This document shows positions 4,700-20,555 of a stretch of DNA of 64,000 nucleotides, piece by piece (the first letter of the stretch is position 1; each line of letters begins with the position of its first letter). The DNA lies in assembly GCF_014268755.2 (NCBI RefSeq), contig NZ_CP077093.1, positions 620,001 to 684,000 on the forward strand, given 5' to 3'. The notes under the pieces were generated by a model. That model saw nothing but the letters and a program-made list of their open reading frames with translations. It was not told the DNA's origin and made no database searches. Source of the stretch: Pseudomonas vanderleydeniana (GTDB lineage Bacteria > Pseudomonadota > Gammaproteobacteria > Pseudomonadales > Pseudomonadaceae). A program made the position numbers and the translations under genes.

Positions 4700-6064
4700 T
4701 CAGTTCAGCAGTTCACGCAACACCTGGGCAAACGCCCGCGCGCTGTCTTCCTCCGCCGCATGCCGGCCGCCGCGTACCACCCACTGGCCGTTGACCATCA
4801 CCTCGCGTACCTGGCGATCGCCGCCGGCGAACAGCCAGCGGTTGAGAATGCCGTCACCCTCGGCTGTCGCCAGGTACGGGTCGTTGCCATCGAGCACCAG
4901 CCAGTCGGCGCGCTTGCCCACCTCCAGTCCGCCAATGGCCTGGCCCAGCGCCTGGGCGCCGCCTTCCAGTGCGGCATCGAACAGCGTGCGCCCGACCATC
5001 GGCTGGTCGGCCCGGTATAGGCGATTGCGGCGCTGGTCGCGCAGGCGCTGGCCATATTCCAGCCAGCGCAGCTCCTCGACCACGCTCAGCGAGACATGGC
5101 TGTCGGAGCCGATGCCCAGTCGCCCGCCCTGGGCGAGGAAGTCCACTGCCGGGAAGATCCCGTCGCCGAGGTTGGCCTCGGTGGTCAGGCACAGGCCTGC
5201 AATCGCCTGGCTGCGGGCCATGCGGCTGACTTCCTCGGCATTGGCGTGGGTGGCATGTACCAGGCACCAGCGCGGGTCCACTTCGACGTTGTCGTAGAGC
5301 CATTGCAGCGGACGCTTGCCGCTCCAGGCCAGGCAGTCGTCGACTTCCTTCTGTTGTTCGGCGATGTGAATATGCACCGGGCATTGCCGGTCGCTGGCCG
5401 CCAGCACTTCGCTGATCTGCTGCGGAGTGACCGCCCGCAACGAATGGAAGCACAGGCCGAGGGCCTGGGCTGGCTGGCTTGCCAGCAACGGCTGCAGACG
5501 TGCCTGCAATTTCAGGTAGTTCTCGGTGCTGTTGATGAAGCGCCGCTGGCCGTCGCTGGGCGCCTGGCCACCAAATCCGGAGTGGCTGTAGAGCACTGGC
5601 AGCAGGGTCAGGCCGATGCCGGCGTCCGTGGCCGCCTGGCTGATGCGCAGGGCCAGTTCGGCCGGGTCGGCGTAAGGCTGGCCGTGGGTATCGTGGTGTA
5701 CATAATGGAACTCGGCCACCGAGGTATAGCCGGCCTTGAGCATCTCGATATAGAGCTGGCGGGCGATGATGCCCATCTGCTCCGGGCTGATCCTGCCCAC
5801 CAGCCGGTACATCAGGTCGCGCCAGGTCCAGAAGCTGTCGTTCGGGTTGCCGGCCACTTCCGCCAGCCCGGCCATCGCCCGCTGGAAGGCGTGGGAGTGC
5901 AGGTTCGGCATGCCTGGCAGCAGCGGGCCGCCCAGCCGTTCGGCGGCTTGTGCGGCGGAGTTGGCCTCGACCCGGGTCAGTACGCCCTGGGCGTCGACCT
6001 CGAGCAATACGTTCCTGGCCCATCCACTAGGCAGCAGCGCGCGTTCGGCAAAGAAGGCGGACAT
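4700..6064 (-). CDS. hutF: Formimidoylglutamate deiminase
   Basis: HutF hydrolyses N-formimino-L-glutamate to N-formyl-L-glutamate and ammonia, step four of the five-step histidine pathway. The 454-residue protein is an amidohydrolase-superfamily TIM barrel. Metal-ligand motifs are LHSH (H56, H58), HIHIAE (H233), LVHATH (H270) and GSDSHVS (D321), each within one residue of the ligands known in the P. aeruginosa enzyme. The gene is divergent from hutC, and a palindromic HutC operator candidate lies about 27-42 bases upstream of its ATG. Presence of hutF together with hutG defines the five-step rather than the four-step (formamide-releasing) route. Confidence 0.96.
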   Translation of the reverse strand: MSAFFAERALLPSGWARNVLLEVDAQGVLTRVEANSAAQAAERLGGPLLPGMPNLHSHAFQRAMAGLAEVAGNPNDSFWTWRDLMYRLVGRISPEQMGIIARQLYIEMLKAGYTSVAEFHYVHHDTHGQPYADPAELALRISQAATDAGIGLTLLPVLYSHSGFGGQAPSDGQRRFINSTENYLKLQARLQPLLASQPAQALGLCFHSLRAVTPQQISEVLAASDRQCPVHIHIAEQQKEVDDCLAWSGKRPLQWLYDNVEVDPRWCLVHATHANAEEVSRMARSQAIAGLCLTTEANLGDGIFPAVDFLAQGGRLGIGSDSHVSLSVVEELRWLEYGQRLRDQRRNRLYRADQPMVGRTLFDAALEGGAQALGQAIGGLEVGKRADWLVLDGNDPYLATAEGDGILNRWLFAGGDRQVREVMVNGQWVVRGGRHAAEEDSARAFAQVLRELLN

Positions 6065-7917: not shown

Positions 7918-8052
7918 TAAATATGTGTGCGTATGAGTCGATCAGGAACCGCTACGCACCCACCCCATTTCCCGCTTGTGATGGATGTAGCCGGCACAAG
8001 CTCGCTTGCCCACTGCCTGGGCGGGTTCGGACGATCGCAGAGGAGTTTTTTC

Positions 8053-9753
8053 GTGACTGAGAATACCCAGAAACCTACCGCCACCTTTACCAAGCGCCGT
8101 GACGTCGAAATCCGTGCCGCCCGTGGCAACACGCTGACCGCCAAGAGCTGGCTGACCGAAGCGCCGCTGCGGATGCTGATGAACAACCTCGACCCACAAG
8201 TGGCCGAGAACCCCAAGGAACTGGTGGTCTACGGGGGTATTGGCCGGGCTGCGCGCAACTGGGAGTGCTACGACAAGATCGTCGAGAGCCTGACCCACCT
8301 GAATGACGACGAGACCCTGCTGGTCCAGTCCGGCAAGCCGGTCGGCGTGTTCAAGACCCACAGCAACGCCCCGCGCGTGCTGATCGCCAACTCCAACCTG
8401 GTGCCGCACTGGGCCACCTGGGAACACTTCAACGAACTGGATGCCAAGGGCCTGGCCATGTACGGCCAGATGACCGCCGGCAGCTGGATCTACATCGGCA
8501 GCCAGGGCATCGTCCAGGGCACCTATGAAACCTTCGTCGAAGCCGGCCGCCAGCACTACGACAACAACCTCAAGGGCCGTTGGGTACTGACCGCCGGCCT
8601 GGGTGGCATGGGTGGCGCTCAGCCACTGGCCGCAACCCTGGCCGGAGCCTGCTCGCTGAACATCGAATGCCAGCAGACCAGCATCGACTTCCGTCTCAAG
8701 ACCCGCTACGTCGACGAGCAGGCCAAGGACCTCGATGACGCCCTGGCCCGTATCGCCAAGTACACCGCCGAAGGCAAGGCGATCTCCATCGCCCTGTGTG
8801 GCAACGCCGCCGAGATCCTCCCGGAACTGGTCCGTCGCGGCGTGCGCCCGGACATGGTCACCGACCAGACCAGCGCCCACGACCCACTCAACGGCTACCT
8901 GCCAGCCGGCTGGACCTGGGAAGAGTACCGCGCCCGCGCGCTGACCGAACCGGCCGCCGTGGTGAAGGCCGCCAAGCAGTCGATGGCGGTGCACGTCAAG
9001 GCGATGCTGGCGTTCCAGAAACAAGGCATCCCGACCTTCGACTACGGCAACAACATCCGCCAGATGGCCCAGGAAGAGGGCGTCGAGAACGCCTTCGACT
9101 TCCCCGGCTTCGTACCGGCCTACATCCGTCCGCTGTTCTGCCGTGGTATCGGCCCGTTCCGCTGGGCGGCGCTGTCGGGTGATCCGCAGGACATCTTCAA
9201 GACCGACGCCAAGGTCAAGGAACTGATCCCGGACGACGCCCACCTGCACAACTGGCTGGACATGGCGCGCGAGCGCATCAGCTTCCAGGGCCTGCCGGCG
9301 CGTATCTGCTGGGTTGGCCTGGGCCTGCGCGCCAAGCTCGGCCTGGCATTCAACGAAATGGTCCGCAGCGGCGAGCTGTCGGCGCCGATCGTGATCGGTC
9401 GCGACCACCTGGACTCCGGCTCGGTGTCCAGTCCGAACCGTGAAACCGAGTCGATGCAGGACGGTTCCGATGCCGTTTCCGACTGGCCGCTGCTCAACGC
9501 TCTGCTCAACACCGCCAGCGGTGCGACCTGGGTCTCCCTGCACCACGGCGGCGGCGTCGGCATGGGCTTCTCGCAGCACTCGGGCATGGTGATCGTCTGC
9601 GACGGTACCGACGAGGCGGCCGCGCGTATCGCCCGTGTGCTGCACAACGACCCGGCGACCGGTGTCATGCGTCACGCCGATGCCGGCTACCAGATCGCGA
9701 TCGATTGCGCGAAGGAGCAGGGCCTGAACCTGCCGATGATCACCGGCAAATAA
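8053..9753 (+). CDS. hutU: Urocanate hydratase
   Basis: Urocanase adds water to urocanate to give 4-imidazolone-5-propionate using tightly bound NAD+ as an electrophile, step two of histidine breakdown. The 566-residue protein has the NAD-binding [19 protein letters not shown], the conserved [16 protein letters not shown] and the C-terminal [17 protein letters not shown]. The GTG start is chosen for AGAGGAG 7 bases upstream and the product start [12 protein letters not shown]; an upstream in-frame ATG at 7927 would add 42 residues with no family similarity. It is first gene of the long plus-strand hut series and is preceded by the sigma-54 promoter and HutC site. Confidence 0.97.
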
Positions 9754-12557: not shown

Positions 12558-13409
12558 ATGTTTCCCGAGAATTTCACGTTTTCCATCGCCGACTGGGTCA
12601 ACGGTTGGGTCGATGCACTGGTGACCAACTATGGCGATGTGTTCCGGCACATCTCCGACACCCTGCTGTGGGCCATCGTCAACCTCGAGAGCCTGCTGCG
12701 CCTGGTGCCGTGGTGGCTGATGCTGGCCATCGTCGGCGGTATCGCCTGGCACGCCACCCGCAAGCTGGTCAGCACCGCGGTGATCGTCGGCCTGCTGTTC
12801 CTGGTCGGCGCCGTCGGCCTGTGGGACAAGCTGATGCAGACCCTGGCGCTGATGCTGGTGGCGACGCTGATCTCGGTGCTGATCGGGATCCCGCTGGGCA
12901 TCCTGTCGGCGCGCAGCAACCGCCTGCGCTCGGTGCTGATGCCGCTGCTGGACATCATGCAGACCATGCCCAGCTTCGTGTACCTGATCCCGGTGCTGAT
13001 GCTGTTCGGCCTGGGCAAGGTCCCGGCGATCTTCGCCACGGTGATCTACGCCGCGCCGCCGCTGATCCGCCTGACCGACCTGGGTATCCGCCAGGTGGAC
13101 GGCGAGGTGATGGAAGCGATCAACGCCTTCGGTGCCAACCGCTGGCAGCAATTGTTCGGCGTGCAGCTGCCGCTGGCCCTGCCGAGCATCATGGCCGGGA
13201 TCAACCAGACCACCATGATGGCCCTGTCGATGGTGGTGATCGCCTCGATGATCGGTGCCCGTGGCCTGGGCGAAGACGTGCTGGTCGGCATCCAGACCCT
13301 GAACGTCGGGCGTGGCCTCGAGGCGGGCCTGGCCATCGTGATTCTCGCCGTGGTCATCGACCGCATTACCCAGGCCTATGGTCGTCCGCGCCATGAGGTG
13401 AGCAAATGA
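12558..13409 (+). CDS. hutW: Histidine ABC transporter, permease
   Basis: A 283-residue inner-membrane permease of the ProW/OpuAB type with about six to seven membrane segments. The cytoplasmic coupling loop, which contacts the ATPase, is visible as EAINAFGANRWQQLFGVQLP. Other family stretches are SVLIGIPLGILSARSNRLRS and MIGARGLGEDVL. It follows hutX by 66 bases and overlaps hutV by 4 bases (ATGA), so permease and ATPase are translationally coupled in the expected stoichiometric unit. Confidence 0.9.
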   Translation: MFPENFTFSIADWVNGWVDALVTNYGDVFRHISDTLLWAIVNLESLLRLVPWWLMLAIVGGIAWHATRKLVSTAVIVGLLFLVGAVGLWDKLMQTLALMLVATLISVLIGIPLGILSARSNRLRSVLMPLLDIMQTMPSFVYLIPVLMLFGLGKVPAIFATVIYAAPPLIRLTDLGIRQVDGEVMEAINAFGANRWQQLFGVQLPLALPSIMAGINQTTMMALSMVVIASMIGARGLGEDVLVGIQTLNVGRGLEAGLAIVILAVVIDRITQAYGRPRHEVSK

Positions 13410-14236
13410 CTGATTCCATCGTCAGCAAGATCGAAGTCAAGAACGTCTTCAAGATCTTCGGTGCGCGCTCCAATGATGCGCTGAACCTGATCCGCCAGGG
13501 CAAGACCAAGGACCAGGTGCTGGCCGAGACCGGCTGCGTGGTCGGGGTCAACGATTTGTCGCTGAGCATCGGCACCGGCGAGATCTTCGTGATCATGGGC
13601 CTGTCGGGTTCCGGCAAGTCGACCCTGGTGCGCCATTTCAACCGCCTGATCGATCCCACCAGCGGCGCGATCCTGGTCGACGGCGTGGACATCCTGCAGC
13701 ACGACATGGACGCCCTGCGCGAATTCCGTCGGCACAAGATCAGCATGGTGTTCCAGAGCTTCGGCCTGCTGCCCCACAAGACCGTGCTGGAGAACGTCGC
13801 CTACGGCCTCAAGGTCCGTGGCGAGAGCAAGCAGCTGTGTGTCGAACGTTCGCTGCACTGGATCAACACCGTGGGCCTCAAGGGCTACGAGAACAAGTAC
13901 CCGCACCAGCTGTCGGGCGGCATGCGCCAGCGCGTCGGCCTGGCCCGGGCCCTGGCGGCAGACACCGACATCATCCTGATGGACGAGGCCTTCAGCGCCC
14001 TCGACCCGCTGATCCGCGCCGAGATGCAGGACCAGTTGCTCGAGCTGCAGAAAACCCTGCACAAGACCATCGTGTTCATTACCCATGACCTCGACGAGGC
14101 GGTGCGCATCGGCAACCGCATTGCGATTCTCAAGGATGGCCGGCTGATCCAGGTCGGTACGCCGCGGGAAATCCTGCATTCGCCGGCGGATGAGTACGTG
14201 GACCGGTTCGTCCAGCGGCGGGCGGCGACCGTATGA
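13406..14236 (+). CDS. hutV: Histidine ABC transporter, ATP-binding protein
   Basis: A 276-residue ProV-type ATPase. Walker A GLSGSGKST is at residues 65-73, the Q-loop in MVFQSFGLLPH, the ABC signature LSGGMRQRVGLARAL, Walker B IILMDEAFSALDP and the switch histidine in FITHDLDEA. Betaine ProV and OpuAA proteins usually carry C-terminal CBS domains for ionic-strength sensing. This one ends soon after the ATPase core (FVQRRAATV), which fits a metabolic rather than osmotic importer. It is the last gene of hutXWV; a REPIN lies between it and hutH1. Confidence 0.92.
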   Translation: MTDSIVSKIEVKNVFKIFGARSNDALNLIRQGKTKDQVLAETGCVVGVNDLSLSIGTGEIFVIMGLSGSGKSTLVRHFNRLIDPTSGAILVDGVDILQHDMDALREFRRHKISMVFQSFGLLPHKTVLENVAYGLKVRGESKQLCVERSLHWINTVGLKGYENKYPHQLSGGMRQRVGLARALAADTDIILMDEAFSALDPLIRAEMQDQLLELQKTLHKTIVFITHDLDEAVRIGNRIAILKDGRLIQVGTPREILHSPADEYVDRFVQRRAATV

Positions 14237-14413: not shown

Positions 14414-15937
14414 ATGTCCCAGGCTGAAAGAATGGTTATCGCCGATGCGCCGATGCGCTGGCAGGATGTGGTCGCGGTCGCCCGCCATGGTGCCCGGCTG
14501 GAGCTGGCGCCGCAGGCCTGGGCGCGGATCGACAATGCCCAGGCGATCGTCCAGCGCATCGTTGTCAGTGGCGAGCGTGCCTATGGCATCAATACTGGCC
14601 TGGGCGCGCTGTCCAATGTGTCGCTGTCCGGCGAGCAACTGAGCCAGCTGTCGCGCAACACCCTGCTCAGCCACGCCTGTGGCGTTGGTGCGCCCCTGTC
14701 TGACGAACAGACCCGGGCGATCATCTGCGCGGCGGTCATCAACTACAGCCAGGGCAAGTCCGGCCTGCATCGCCAGGTGGTCGAGGCGCTGCTGGCGCTG
14801 CTCAACCATGGCATCACACCGCAGGTGCCGTCCCAGGGTTCGGTCGGCTACCTGACCCACATGGCCCATGTTGGCGTGGCCCTGCTCGGGGTCGGCCAGG
14901 TCAGCTATCGTGGCCGGATCGTCTCCGCCGGGCAGGCCCTGGCCGAGGAAGGCCTGCAGCCGGTGGTGCTGGGCGCCAAGGACGGGTTGTGCCTGGTCAA
15001 CGGCACGCCGTGCATGACCGGTCTCAGTTGCCTGGCCCTGGCTGACGCCAACCGCCTGGTGCAATGGGCCGACGTGACCGCGGCGATGAGCTTCGAGGCC
15101 CAGCGTGGCCAGATCGCCGCCTTCGATGCCGAAATCATCGCGCTCAAGCCGCACCCGGGCATGCAACAGGTCGGCAGCAACCTGCGCGACCTGCTCGACG
15201 GCAGCGAGGTGATTGCCGCGAGCAAGGGCATCCGTACCCAGGACGCCCTGAGCATTCGTTCGATCCCGCAGGTGCACGGTGCGGCTCGCGACCAGTTGGC
15301 CCACGCCACCCGGCAGGTCGAGATCGAGCTCAACGGCTGCACCGACAACCCGCTGTTGCTGGGCACGCCGGACGACTTCCGGGTGATGTCGCAGGCCAAC
15401 CCCCACGGCCAGTCGGTCGCCATGGCGGCGGACCTGCTGGCGATCGCCATGGCGGAGCTCGGCTCGATCGCCGAGCGGCGTCTTGACCGCCTGATCAACC
15501 CGCACGTCAGCGGCCTGCCGGCGTTCCTGGTCAGCCAGCCGGGCGTCAACTCGGGAATGATGATCGTGCAGTACGTCGCTGCGTCCCTCTGTGCGCAGAA
15601 CCGCCAGTTGGCACAACCGGCAGTGCTCGACAACTACGTCACCTCGGGGCTGCAGGAAGATCACCTGAGCCTGGGCACCAACGCCGCGTTGAAATTGCAC
15701 CAGGTCCTGGAGAACGGCACGCAGATCCTCGCCATCGAGTACCTGCTGGCGGCCCAGGCCTTCGAATTCCTCAAGGAACAACGCTTCGGCGCCGGTACGG
15801 ACGTCGCCTGGAAGCTGTTGCGCGAGCACGTGCCGGCCTATGACCAGGATCGCTGGCTGGCGCCGGATATCGCCAGTGCGGCGGCGTTATTGCGCGCACC
15901 GACGCTGTTGGCCGAACGATTGCCGAACCTGAACTGA
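14414..15937 (+). CDS. hutH1: Histidase-family protein lacking the MIO triad
   Basis: A full-length (507 residues) member of the histidine/phenylalanine ammonia-lyase family. Active lyases form the MIO electrophile from Ala-Ser-Gly in [14 protein letters not shown]. Here the same place reads GSVGYLTHMAH (GSVG at residues 142-145, Y146), three residues shorter with no ASG. Compared with P. putida HAL, Tyr280 is Leu (L279, in TQDALSIR) and Phe329 is Pro (P330, in NPHGQSVA). Tyr53 (AYGINTG), His83 (LLSHACGVG), Asn195 (LVNGTP), Gln277, Arg283 and Glu414 (QEDH) equivalents are kept. The ATG at 14414 has GAGG 5 bases upstream. Classical histidase activity is unlikely; a regulatory subunit for HutH2 or a different reaction is possible. 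The hutH1 name follows position. Confidence 0.85.
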   Translation: MSQAERMVIADAPMRWQDVVAVARHGARLELAPQAWARIDNAQAIVQRIVVSGERAYGINTGLGALSNVSLSGEQLSQLSRNTLLSHACGVGAPLSDEQTRAIICAAVINYSQGKSGLHRQVVEALLALLNHGITPQVPSQGSVGYLTHMAHVGVALLGVGQVSYRGRIVSAGQALAEEGLQPVVLGAKDGLCLVNGTPCMTGLSCLALADANRLVQWADVTAAMSFEAQRGQIAAFDAEIIALKPHPGMQQVGSNLRDLLDGSEVIAASKGIRTQDALSIRSIPQVHGAARDQLAHATRQVEIELNGCTDNPLLLGTPDDFRVMSQANPHGQSVAMAADLLAIAMAELGSIAERRLDRLINPHVSGLPAFLVSQPGVNSGMMIVQYVAASLCAQNRQLAQPAVLDNYVTSGLQEDHLSLGTNAALKLHQVLENGTQILAIEYLLAAQAFEFLKEQRFGAGTDVAWKLLREHVPAYDQDRWLAPDIASAAALLRAPTLLAERLPNLN

Positions 15938-17923: not shown

Positions 17924-19333
17924 ATGCAACAGCCAGTAAAAGGTTTGAAACGCGGGCTTTCCGCCCGACACATTCGCTTCATGGCCCTGGGTTCCGCCAT
18001 CGGCACGGGCCTGTTCTACGGCTCCGCCTCGGCCATCCAGATGGCCGGCCCGGCCGTGCTGCTGGCCTACCTGATCGGCGGCGCCGCCGTGTTCATGGTG
18101 ATGCGCGCCCTCGGCGAGATGGCGGTGCACAACCCGGTTTCCGGCTCGTTCGGCCAGTACGCCAGCACCTACGTCGGCCCGATGTCGGGCTTCATCCTCG
18201 GGTGGACCTACGCCTTCGAGATGGTCATCGTCGGCTTGGCCGACGTCACCGCCTTCGGCATCTACATGGGTTTCTGGTTCCCCGAGGTCGACCGCTGGAT
18301 CTGGGTCCTGGGCATCGTCTTCCTCATCGGCGCGCTGAACCTGTGCGCGGTGAAGGTCTTCGGTGAGATGGAATTCTGGCTGTCGCTGCTCAAGGTCGGC
18401 GCGATTGTCGCGATGATCCTCGGCGGCTTCGGCATCATGTTCTTCGGCATCAGCACCGCCACGCCGTCCGCCGAGGTCGGTCTCGGCAATCTCTGGGCCC
18501 ATGGCGGCTTCATGCCCAACGGCGTGGGCGGCATCATCGCCTCCTTCGCGGTGGTGATGTTCGCTTTCGGCGGCATCGAGATCATCGGCGTCACCGCAGG
18601 CGAGGCCCGTGATCCGCAGCGGGTCATCCCCAAGGCGATCAACGCGGTACCGGTGCGCATCCTGCTGTTCTACGTACTGACCCTGCTGGTGCTGATGTCC
18701 ATCTACCCCTGGCCGCAGATCGGCAGCCAGGGCAGTCCGTTCGTGCAGATCTTCCAGAACCTGGGGATCGGCTCGGCGGCGACCATTCTCAATATCGTGG
18801 TGATTTCGGCGGCGGTGTCGGCGATCAACAGCGATATCTTCGGTGCCGGCCGCATGATGTACGGCCTGGCCCAGCAGGGGCAGGCGCCCAAGGCCTTTGC
18901 CACGTTGTCGCGTGCCGGCGTGCCGTGGATGACCGTGGTGGTGATGGGGGCTGCTTTGCTCCTCGGCGTGCTGCTGAACTACCTGATCCCGGAAAACGTG
19001 TTCCTGCTGATCGCCTCGATCGCGACCTTCGCCACCGTCTGGGTGTGGATCATGATCCTGATCACCCAGGTCGCCATGCGCCGCTCTATGAGCCGCGAAG
19101 AGGTGGCCCAGCTCAAGTTCCCCGTGCCGTTCTGGCCGTATGCGCCGATCGCCGCCATCACCTTCATGGTCTTCATCTTCGGCGTGCTGGGCTGGTTCCC
19201 GGACAGTCGGCCGGCGCTGATCGTCGGTGCGGTGTGGATCGGCCTGCTGGTGCTGGCGTACCTGGTCTGGGTCAAGCCGGCGGCGGCCCAGGCGGCACGA
19301 GTCGCACAAGATCCTTCCCTGTCTCATCGATAG
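17924..19333 (+). CDS. hutTh: Amino-acid permease, probable histidine transporter
   Basis: A 469-residue APC-superfamily permease of the AroP/ProY type with 12 predicted membrane segments. The N-terminus [20 protein letters not shown], with GTGLFYGS in TM1, and the [19 protein letters not shown] stretch are diagnostic of the family. In P. fluorescens the permease at this place in hut is the main histidine importer, hutTh. It follows hutH2 by 335 bases and precedes hutI by 16 bases, so it is probably transcribed with hutI and hutG. Substrate assignment comes from context. A strong AAGGA precedes the ATG. Confidence 0.87.
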
Positions 19334-19349: not shown

Positions 19350-20555
19350 ATGAAAACGCTCTGGCAGAACTGTCACGTTGCAAGCATGGCACAAGGCACC
19401 TACTCGATCATCGAGGATGCCGCCATCGTGACCGTGGCGTCGAAGATCGACTGGATCGGCCCGCGCGCCGAACTGCCGGCTGCGGATTATCCACAGGTCC
19501 ATGACCTGGGCGGGGCCTGGGTAACGCCGGGGCTGGTCGACTGCCACACCCACACGGTGTTCGGCGGCAACCGCAGTGGCGAGTTCGAGCAGCGCCTGCA
19601 GGGTGTCAGCTATGCCGAGATCGCCGCTGCCGGCGGCGGTATCGCCAGCACCGTGCGGGCGACTCGCGCGGCCAGCGAGGAGCAACTGTTCGCCAGCGCC
19701 CGGCAGCGCCTGAGCTGCCTGCTGCGCGAGGGTGTGACCAGCGTCGAGATCAAGTCCGGCTACGGCCTGGACCTGGAAAACGAACGCAAGATGCTCAGGG
19801 TGGCCCGTCGTCTTGGCGAGGAACTGCCGGTCAGCGTGCGCGCCACCTGCCTGGCGGCCCATGCGTTGCCACCGGAGTACAAGGACCGTGCCGATGACTA
19901 CATCGAACACATCTGCAACGAGATGCTCCCGGCCCTGGCGGCCGAGGGGCTGGTGGATGCGGTCGATGCGTTCTGTGAGTACCTGGCGTTTTCCCCGGAG
20001 CAGGTCGAGCGGCTGTTCAAGGTCGCGCAGCGCCTGGGCCTGCCGGTGAAACTGCATGCCGAGCAGTTGTCCTCGCTGCACGGTTCGAGCCTGGCGGCAC
20101 GCTACCAGGCGCTGTCGGCCGATCACCTGGAGTTCATGACCGAGGAAGACGCCATCGCCATGGCGGCGGCGGGCACGGTGGCGGTGTTGTTGCCCGGTGC
20201 CTTCTATTTCCTGCGTGAAACCCAGCTGCCGCCGATGGATGCCCTGCGCCGGCATGGGGTGAAGATCGCCATCGCCACCGACCTCAACCCCGGGACTTCG
20301 CCGGGCCTGTCCCTGCGCCTGATGCTGAACATGGCCTGCACGCTGTTCCGCATGACGCCGGAGGAGGCGCTGGCCGGGGTCACCCTGCACGCTGCCACGG
20401 CGCTGGGCATGGGCGACACCCATGGATCCCTGGAGGTCGGCAAGGTGGCCGACTTCGTCGCCTGGCAGATCGATCGGCCGGCGGACCTGGCCTACTGGCT
20501 GGGCGGCGACCTGGACAAACGCGTGGTACGCCACGGCATCGAAGTACTGATCTAG
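19350..20555 (+). CDS. hutI: Imidazolonepropionase
   Basis: HutI opens the ring of 4-imidazolone-5-propionate to N-formimino-L-glutamate, step three of the pathway. The 401-residue protein is a metal-dependent amidohydrolase: [10 protein letters not shown] gives metal ligands H66 and H68, [12 protein letters not shown] a later histidine, and [11 protein letters not shown] the catalytic aspartate region. The ATG at 19350 follows GGAGG by 5-6 bases. It lies 16 bases after hutTh and 10 before hutG, consistent with one transcript. Its product feeds HutF, encoded divergently at the other end of the cluster. Confidence 0.97.

Follow-up and report, generated by a model that had tools for sequence, protein, structure and literature searches.

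A hutH1 gene without the MIO triad in the hut locus of Pseudomonas vanderleydeniana and its predicted role as a trimethylamine lyase of hercynine

A stretch of 64,000 nucleotides from Pseudomonas vanderleydeniana (NCBI RefSeq assembly GCF_014268755.2, contig NZ_CP077093.1, positions 620,001 to 684,000 of the forward strand), called the window in the following, contains a hut locus with the genes hutF, hutC, hutD, hutU, hutTu, hutX, hutW, hutV, hutH1, hutH2, hutTh, hutI and hutG in this order. The subject of this work is hutH1, the product of which lacks the residues that form the 4-methylideneimidazol-5-one (MIO) electrophile of histidine ammonia-lyases (HAL). Its features are listed first; positions are those of the window, and loci and genomes used for comparison carry L and G numbers, respectively.

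14414..15937, + strand: hutH1, enzyme of the aromatic amino acid lyase family (PF00221) without MIO; predicted to release trimethylamine from a betaine (hercynine)
14846..14869, + strand: codons for G145 to H152 (GYLTHMAH), where MIO histidases have the MIO-forming stretch; the codon of Y146 is 14849-14851; genome position G000:C1:634846-634869

The hutH1 gene and its constraint in Pseudomonas

The frame of hutH1 is uninterrupted over 507 codons in the open reading frames of the window, as the first-pass annotation of this DNA had stated. That annotation had also claimed that the protein is devoid of the MIO-forming Ala-Ser-Gly (ASG) triad, and this was borne out: ASG, the feature of MIO histidases, occurs nowhere in HutH1, and in an alignment with HutH2 exactly these three residues are gone, GSVG being followed directly by Y146 (GSVGYLTHMAH). 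The residues right after the deleted triad are altered as well. HutH2 itself has an intact triad, as had been said, but at residues 145–147 and not at 143–145. The two proteins are 39% identical over their whole length. HutH1 missed the cut-off of the hutH equivalog model TIGR01225 (534.9 vs 539.15 bits) and passed that of the broader subfamily NF006871 (549.9 vs 524); the absent triad supports the earlier view that it is not an ordinary MIO histidase. Codon use is normal, as had been noticed, with a GC content at third positions (GC3) of 0.866 for hutH1, 0.865 for hutH2 and 0.869 for hutU. The closest named relatives are from P. fuscovaginae (94%).

A protein search found HutH1 in 104 of 149 genomes of the same genus, at 59–100% identity. 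Scanning of the DNA with the degenerate motif GYL[TSA]HMAH yielded one match in each of the same 104 genomes, while the reversed pattern, used as a control, gave zero matches across the 149. Residues 141–152 are invariant in all 81 aligned genes (80 loci and the window), and their codons vary synonymously, except for the single codon of Met150; GYLTHMAH was among the six search peptides behind this set of genes, a bias of which the protein and pattern searches in the 149 genomes are free. The median ratio of nonsynonymous to synonymous rates (dN/dS), from 800 random pairs of the 81 rows, was 0.087 for HutH1, compared with 0.054 for HutH2, and in-frame stops were absent from the alignment sets of both. 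This fixation and constraint indicate that selection keeps a protein free of MIO. The homologue search and the dN/dS values proposed in the first-pass annotation thus agree with its opinion that the gene is not decaying.

Active-site residues and MIO-less relatives

Residues of HAL are given in the numbering of the P. putida enzyme, which agrees with the offset of +3 found for HutH2. The equivalents of the six catalytic residues Tyr53, His83, Asn195, Gln277, Arg283 and Glu414 are present in HutH1 (Y57, H87, N196, Q276, R282 and E415), in accordance with the earlier remark that several active-site residues are kept. The two replacements which had been reported, Leu279 for Tyr280 and Pro330 for Phe329, were found in the alignment, and in these positions too HutH1 departs from the MIO enzymes. 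Among HutH1-type rows, Y57, H87, Q276, R282 and E415 occur in 40 of 40 and N196 in 39 of 40. The site of Tyr280 is occupied by leucine in all 40 HutH1-type and all five ergothionase-type rows, and by tyrosine in 28 of 28 MIO histidases; that of Phe329 holds P, A, C or G in the HutH1-type rows. At only nine positions do HutH1-type rows and MIO histidases each have a fixed residue that differs between the two, including Y146, H149, L279 and A328; the classes (GSxGY or HutH1-type, MIO, ergothionase-type) were set by motif, so that the invariance of Y146 is true by definition.

According to a study on HAL mutants, Y52F, H82L, N194D and E411D abolish the activity of the Geobacillus enzyme (GkHAL), and P. 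putida HAL with F329G forms no MIO (PMC11432326). From these data, the residues kept in HutH1 would be catalytic ones, and those lost would be tied to MIO chemistry. Judged by its residues, the profile of HutH1 is that of an enzyme with altered activation of the leaving group, and not that of a dead enzyme. A mere histidine- or urocanate-binding protein, one of the options considered previously, is unlikely, since the residues for proton transfer and carboxylate binding are strictly conserved; among those options, an enzyme with new chemistry is the best supported.

Relatives of HutH1 at 70% to 42% identity were found on plasmids of Erwinia, Rhizobium, Sinorhizobium, Priestia and E. coli, with GS[VLA]GYL replacing GSVGASGDL. 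The matches in the PDB included one MIO-less relative, the ergothionase of Treponema denticola (6s7j; motif SSIGEGDI), an enzyme described as devoid of MIO (PMC13405746). In a tree of 76 rows, one branch (support 94/85; present in 94% of the bootstrap trees) parts 48 MIO-less rows from 28 MIO rows; a first tree of 34 rows had separated 23 MIO-less from 11 MIO rows (91/83). Both trees are unrooted, and the larger one omits the long-branched third paralogue of the genome of the window. A single loss of MIO is compatible with these unrooted trees. Like HutH1, ergothionase (6s7j/6s7q) is a member of the lyase family without MIO, lies on the same side of this branch, has leucine at the site of Tyr280 and keeps the equivalents of Tyr53, Arg283 and Glu414. 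Unlike HutH1, it has kept Phe329 and lost Asn195, and its motif is one residue short, compared with three in HutH1 (GSVGY---L). Its product is thiourocanate, whereas the operon in the window has an ordinary urocanate hydratase.

Other MIO-less lyases were encountered. Proteins of Rhizobium with GSIGAAD and a protein of S. meliloti with GSVGQAD cluster with ergothionase (100/100). A second MIO-less type, with GSIGAAD or GSLGAAD and nearest to ergothionase, occurs in L111, L112 (about 7950-9479) and L135 (3088-4515); in the latter two it adjoins an OsmF-like betaine-binding protein, and the copy in L112 is annotated as hutH. On psymA of S. meliloti (L127, 3001-4470), a MIO-less lyase with GSVGQADMTLLSH clusters with ergothionase (100/99). 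A third class, having GSVGYL together with AVEGH or GPEGH and retaining Tyr280 and Phe329, is present in L097 (4885-6429), L099 (4832-6370) and L100 (6788-8326) near an amino acid transporter of the ATP-binding cassette (ABC) type, with hutU also nearby in L099 and L100. The stretch from a plasmid of E. coli KL53 (L110) contains hutU, hutF, hutC, hutD and an ABC transporter, and its only lyase is MIO-less (GSVGYLIATAH).

Gene neighbourhood of hutH1

The other genes of the locus in the window are the following.

4700..6064, - strand: hutF, formiminoglutamate deiminase; matches annotated genes of L107, L108 and L110
6167..6955, + strand: hutC, repressor; start approximate; matches annotated hutC of L110
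6952..7530, + strand: hutD; matches annotated HutD-family gene of L110
7927..9753, + strand: hutU frame, ordinary urocanate hydratase; the gene start lies inside the frame; above the cut-off of TIGR01228
9944..11416, + strand: hutTu, NCS1-like transporter; named urocanate transporter in P. fluorescens SBW25 (PMC8871633)
11523..12491, + strand: hutX, glycine betaine/choline-type periplasmic binding protein; W140 and W188 of ProX correspond in alignment to its Trp173 and Trp222
12558..13409, + strand: hutW, permease of the ChoW/ProW type; below equivalog cut-offs
13406..14236, + strand: hutV, ATPase of the betaine/proline/choline family; above the cut-off of subfamily TIGR01186
16050..17588, + strand: hutH2, ordinary MIO histidase with intact triad at residues 145-147
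17924..19333, + strand: hutTh, amino acid permease
19350..20555, + strand: hutI, imidazolonepropionase; matches annotated hutI of L107
20560..21369, + strand: hutG, presumably N-formylglutamate amidohydrolase; named by gene order

With models of thiourocanate hydratases, the hutU of the window, to which this comparison was confined, scored below the cut-offs. Since it is of the ordinary type, the product of the lyase should carry a plain imidazole ring without sulfur.

Linkage was counted for 104 HutH1 rows at at least 59% identity, leaving out 15 rows at 37–51%. HutX matches were listed at 71% identity or more; counts of HutH2 omit seven second copies at 62–63% in genomes which also hold a closer HutH2. 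Neighbouring genes were named by similarity to proteins of the window or the loci, while for BCCT carriers a family model was used in L094 and L095 only. Within 6 kb of HutH1, HutX was present in 95 of the 104 loci and HutH2 in 85; HutX was nearby without a nearby HutH2 in 14 loci. HutH2 is missing from the operon of four loci (L104, L117, L118 and L119), in which the gene order is hutU-X-W-V-H1-Th-I-G. Of 149 genomes, 139 had both HutX and HutH1 or neither of them (Fisher p 1.4e-27, related genomes being treated as independent). The nine loci lacking HutX all have a transporter gene beside HutH1: HutW-HutV without a full HutX in four (L115, L116, L121 and L045, the last with a 41-residue piece of HutX and assumed, as the coordinates are equal, to be G095), a polar-amino-acid ABC transporter in two (L092, L093) and a BCCT carrier in three (L094, L095, L096). 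HutH1 is tied more to transporters than to HutH2.

The families to which these transporters belong are the ProU/ChoXWV-type importers of quaternary amines, in the case of HutXWV, and the BCCT carriers. The solved protein closest to HutX is a binding protein of the glycine betaine/proline type (7yle), while HutW and HutV are similar to the ProU/Cho family. In the alignment, W140 and W188 in the betaine box of E. coli ProX fall on Trp173 and Trp222 of HutX, where Trp90 could, at a guess, be the third tryptophan of the box. Each of these three tryptophans is conserved in 88 of 88 matched loci, including HutX of S. meliloti at 49% identity. For this comparison 91 loci were given; L019 and L024, in which the end lies too near HutH1, and L045 with its short piece were unmatched.

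In the G757 family of genomes, the HutH1 motif was found in 13 of 151 genomes, and a BCCT carrier is encoded directly upstream of HutH1 in 12 of these 13 loci, the exception being G821. Three divergent Pseudomonas loci likewise have a BCCT gene beside HutH1. The carriers of the G757 family were named by similarity to the protein of L094, which, as that of L095, matches the BCCT models of Pfam and NCBIfam. An ordinary histidase was not found in five of the 13 genomes (G757, G800, G836, G900 and G921; 96–100% complete) with the pattern ASGDLAPLA and a search for PF00221. The other PF00221 members detected there were one ASGDLTPL-type protein each, and in G757 also a protein of the GSLGAAD type, which adjoins an OsmF-like betaine-binding protein. 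The five genomes hold hutC, hutF and the arrangement hutU-BCCT-hutH1-hutI, with hutG in three of the five stretches. HutH1 is the only lyase of their hut operon, and the gene for the betaine-type carrier lies between it and hutU. With a hut operon present and an ordinary histidase not found, HutH1 is the evident supplier of urocanate.

A candidate lyase of hercynine and its alternatives

Histidases depend on the MIO electrophile since ammonia is a poor leaving group. Trimethylamine, by far the better one, departs without this electrophile in ergothionase, and an enzyme that releases it could therefore lose the ASG triad. The kinship with ergothionase and the upstream genes for betaine-type transporters, both absent from the first-pass annotation, point to the substrate. 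HutH1 is probably a MIO-independent lyase of an imported quaternary-ammonium histidine, most likely of hercynine (histidine betaine, N-alpha-trimethylhistidine), which would be converted to trans-urocanate and trimethylamine. The choice of hercynine comes from the chemistry and the gene neighbourhood; the catalytic activity, the products and the role of Tyr146 are predictions as well. Hercynine would be taken up by HutXWV, or by the BCCT carrier in other genomes. Tyr57, His87, Asn196, Gln276, Arg282 and Glu415 may bind the imidazole ring and the carboxylate and abstract the beta-proton; Tyr146, at the former site of MIO, would face the trimethylammonium group, and the small residue at position 330 could help to make room. 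The trans-urocanate formed by elimination of trimethylamine would enter the ordinary hut pathway at HutU. EgtD was above the cut-off in none of ten genomes searched, two of which had sub-threshold fragments containing stops; the genome of the window gave no match at all, thus hercynine would be imported rather than made.

Several observations weigh against this reading. HutH1 lies outside the ergothionase clade, which is separate (100/100), so that it is not an ergothionase in the strict sense. A distant MIO-less class with GSVGYL (three rows, 38% identity) retains Tyr280 and Phe329, and one HutH1-type row, from the E. coli plasmid of L110, has glycine at N196. In the mostly close set of HutX proteins compared, almost every aromatic residue is invariant, which makes the invariance of the tryptophan box weak if taken alone, and the aromatic signature of transmembrane helix 8 was matched by none of 15 BCCT proteins, only the string W....W..W being common. 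In many loci the adjacent transporter is of the polar-amino-acid ABC type and not of the betaine type; the ABC binding protein of L107 resembles those for lysine/arginine/ornithine and for histidine. HutXWV and the adjacent BCCT proteins all score below the equivalog cut-offs for transporters of glycine betaine or choline, hence their ligand may be another compound. In the five genomes, the ASGDLTPL-type protein encoded elsewhere carries a MIO triad and could deaminate histidine. PA5093 of P. aeruginosa may be the lyase-like gene; if so, the phenotype of its mutant would need explaining. In a report from 2025, PA5093 is called hutG, and the mutant has a growth defect on histidine and urocanate (PMC12772324). 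The same five-gene insertion, hutTu-hutXWV-hutH1, lies between hutU and hutH in P. fluorescens SBW25, where HutXWV takes part in the uptake of histidine and hutH1 is not required on histidine; a betaine substrate of hutH1 is not mentioned in the available part of that account (PMC8871633). Due to this role of HutXWV in histidine uptake, a betaine is not established as its ligand.

A different methylated or quaternary imidazole, for instance ergothioneine or a partly N-methylated histidine, as the substrate of a MIO-independent HutH1 lyase appears unlikely, if still the best of the alternatives. The position of HutH1 in the same MIO-less group as ergothionase and the adjoining betaine-type transporters would suit such a substrate; a relative of 50% identity shares a cluster with a glycine betaine monooxygenase resembling GbcA (L098, L097), and a homologue of N-methyl amino acid oxidase is encoded near other relatives (L092, L138). 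Ergothioneine itself is disfavoured by the ordinary type of the hutU in the window, with its scores below the cut-offs for thiourocanate hydratase, and by the position of HutH1 outside the ergothionase clade.

Somewhat less likely still is a slow or conditional histidase, which would deaminate histidine without MIO. HutH1 has kept the histidine-binding residues and shares them, as well as the operon, with HutH (1b8f/1gkm; HutH2 of the window); some adjacent transporters are amino acid ABC types, and in five genomes with a hut operon and HutH1 no ordinary histidase was found. HutH differs from HutH1, however, in having the MIO triad, Tyr280 and Phe329, the last two being lost from HutH1, and in the same five genomes a BCCT carrier adjoins HutH1.

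It is improbable that HutH1 is a pseudoenzyme with a role in the regulation or stability of HutH2 or in sensing for the transporter. In favour, the electrophile is lost, HutH2 lies within 6 kb in 85 of 104 loci, and lyase active sites use residues of three subunits, the last point having led the first-pass annotation to suggest a regulatory partner of HutH2. The synteny of the two genes proved not to be obligate: HutH2 is missing from the 6 kb around HutH1 in 19 of the 104 Pseudomonas loci, HutH1 persists in operons that lack HutH2 and is the sole lyase of several of them, and 35 of 138 genomes with HutH2 are without HutH1. Moreover, the catalytic residues are invariant. A partner role for HutH2 was rejected on the linkage data and on the five genomes in which an ordinary histidase was not found. 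Sequencing error, considered earlier as a deletion of nine bases, or a recent pseudogene has a negligible chance of being correct and was ruled out, since the motif recurs in 104 genomes, 81 of 81 frames are open and constraint is strong, and no supporting point was found.

Lyases devoid of MIO are already known from ergothionase; for the HutH1 branch, for the substrate it is likely to use and for its location in the hut operon there seems to be no earlier description, as neither a hercynine lyase nor the missing triad of HutH1 was found in the open-licence literature in the portions of text accessible (subscription papers were outside the scope). We lean slightly towards the broader view that HutH1 and its relatives in Pseudomonadota and Bacillota constitute an unrecognised family of hercynine trimethylamine lyases, with an aromatic residue that faces the departing trimethylammonium in place of MIO, and that these enzymes, annotated as histidase, form together with HutXWV or BCCT carriers a route by which histidine betaine is turned into glutamate and trimethylamine, widespread in soil and in association with plants. 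This would account for pseudomonads keeping a second, seemingly useless histidase gene beside a betaine-type transporter. Hercynine would gain a catabolic enzyme and trimethylamine an additional source, and the lyase family could drop its electrophilic cofactor once the leaving group is good enough. Many entries named "histidine ammonia-lyase" (e.g., those of L106-L109) would need renaming, for which GS[VLA]GY[LI] instead of GSVGASGDL could serve as a sequence test.

Some further observations concern neighbouring genes and paralogues. The cluster with the MIO-less lyase of 50% identity (L098, 6574-10381; L097, 11229-16025) also encodes an Ldh_2 dehydrogenase and a reductase of the ferredoxin type beside the GbcA-like Rieske monooxygenase; no other hut gene was found in the stretch of L098, and this lyase perhaps acts on another betaine. 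A membrane protein of the YjiH/Gate family recurs near HutH1-type genes in S. meliloti and the G757 family (L108, 9572-10846; L135, L183-L186, L188-L190 and L193). The genome of the window has a third member of PF00221 with intact MIO triad, 36 kb beyond the window (L003; G000:C1:720466-721818), which probably belongs to an aryl polyene cluster.

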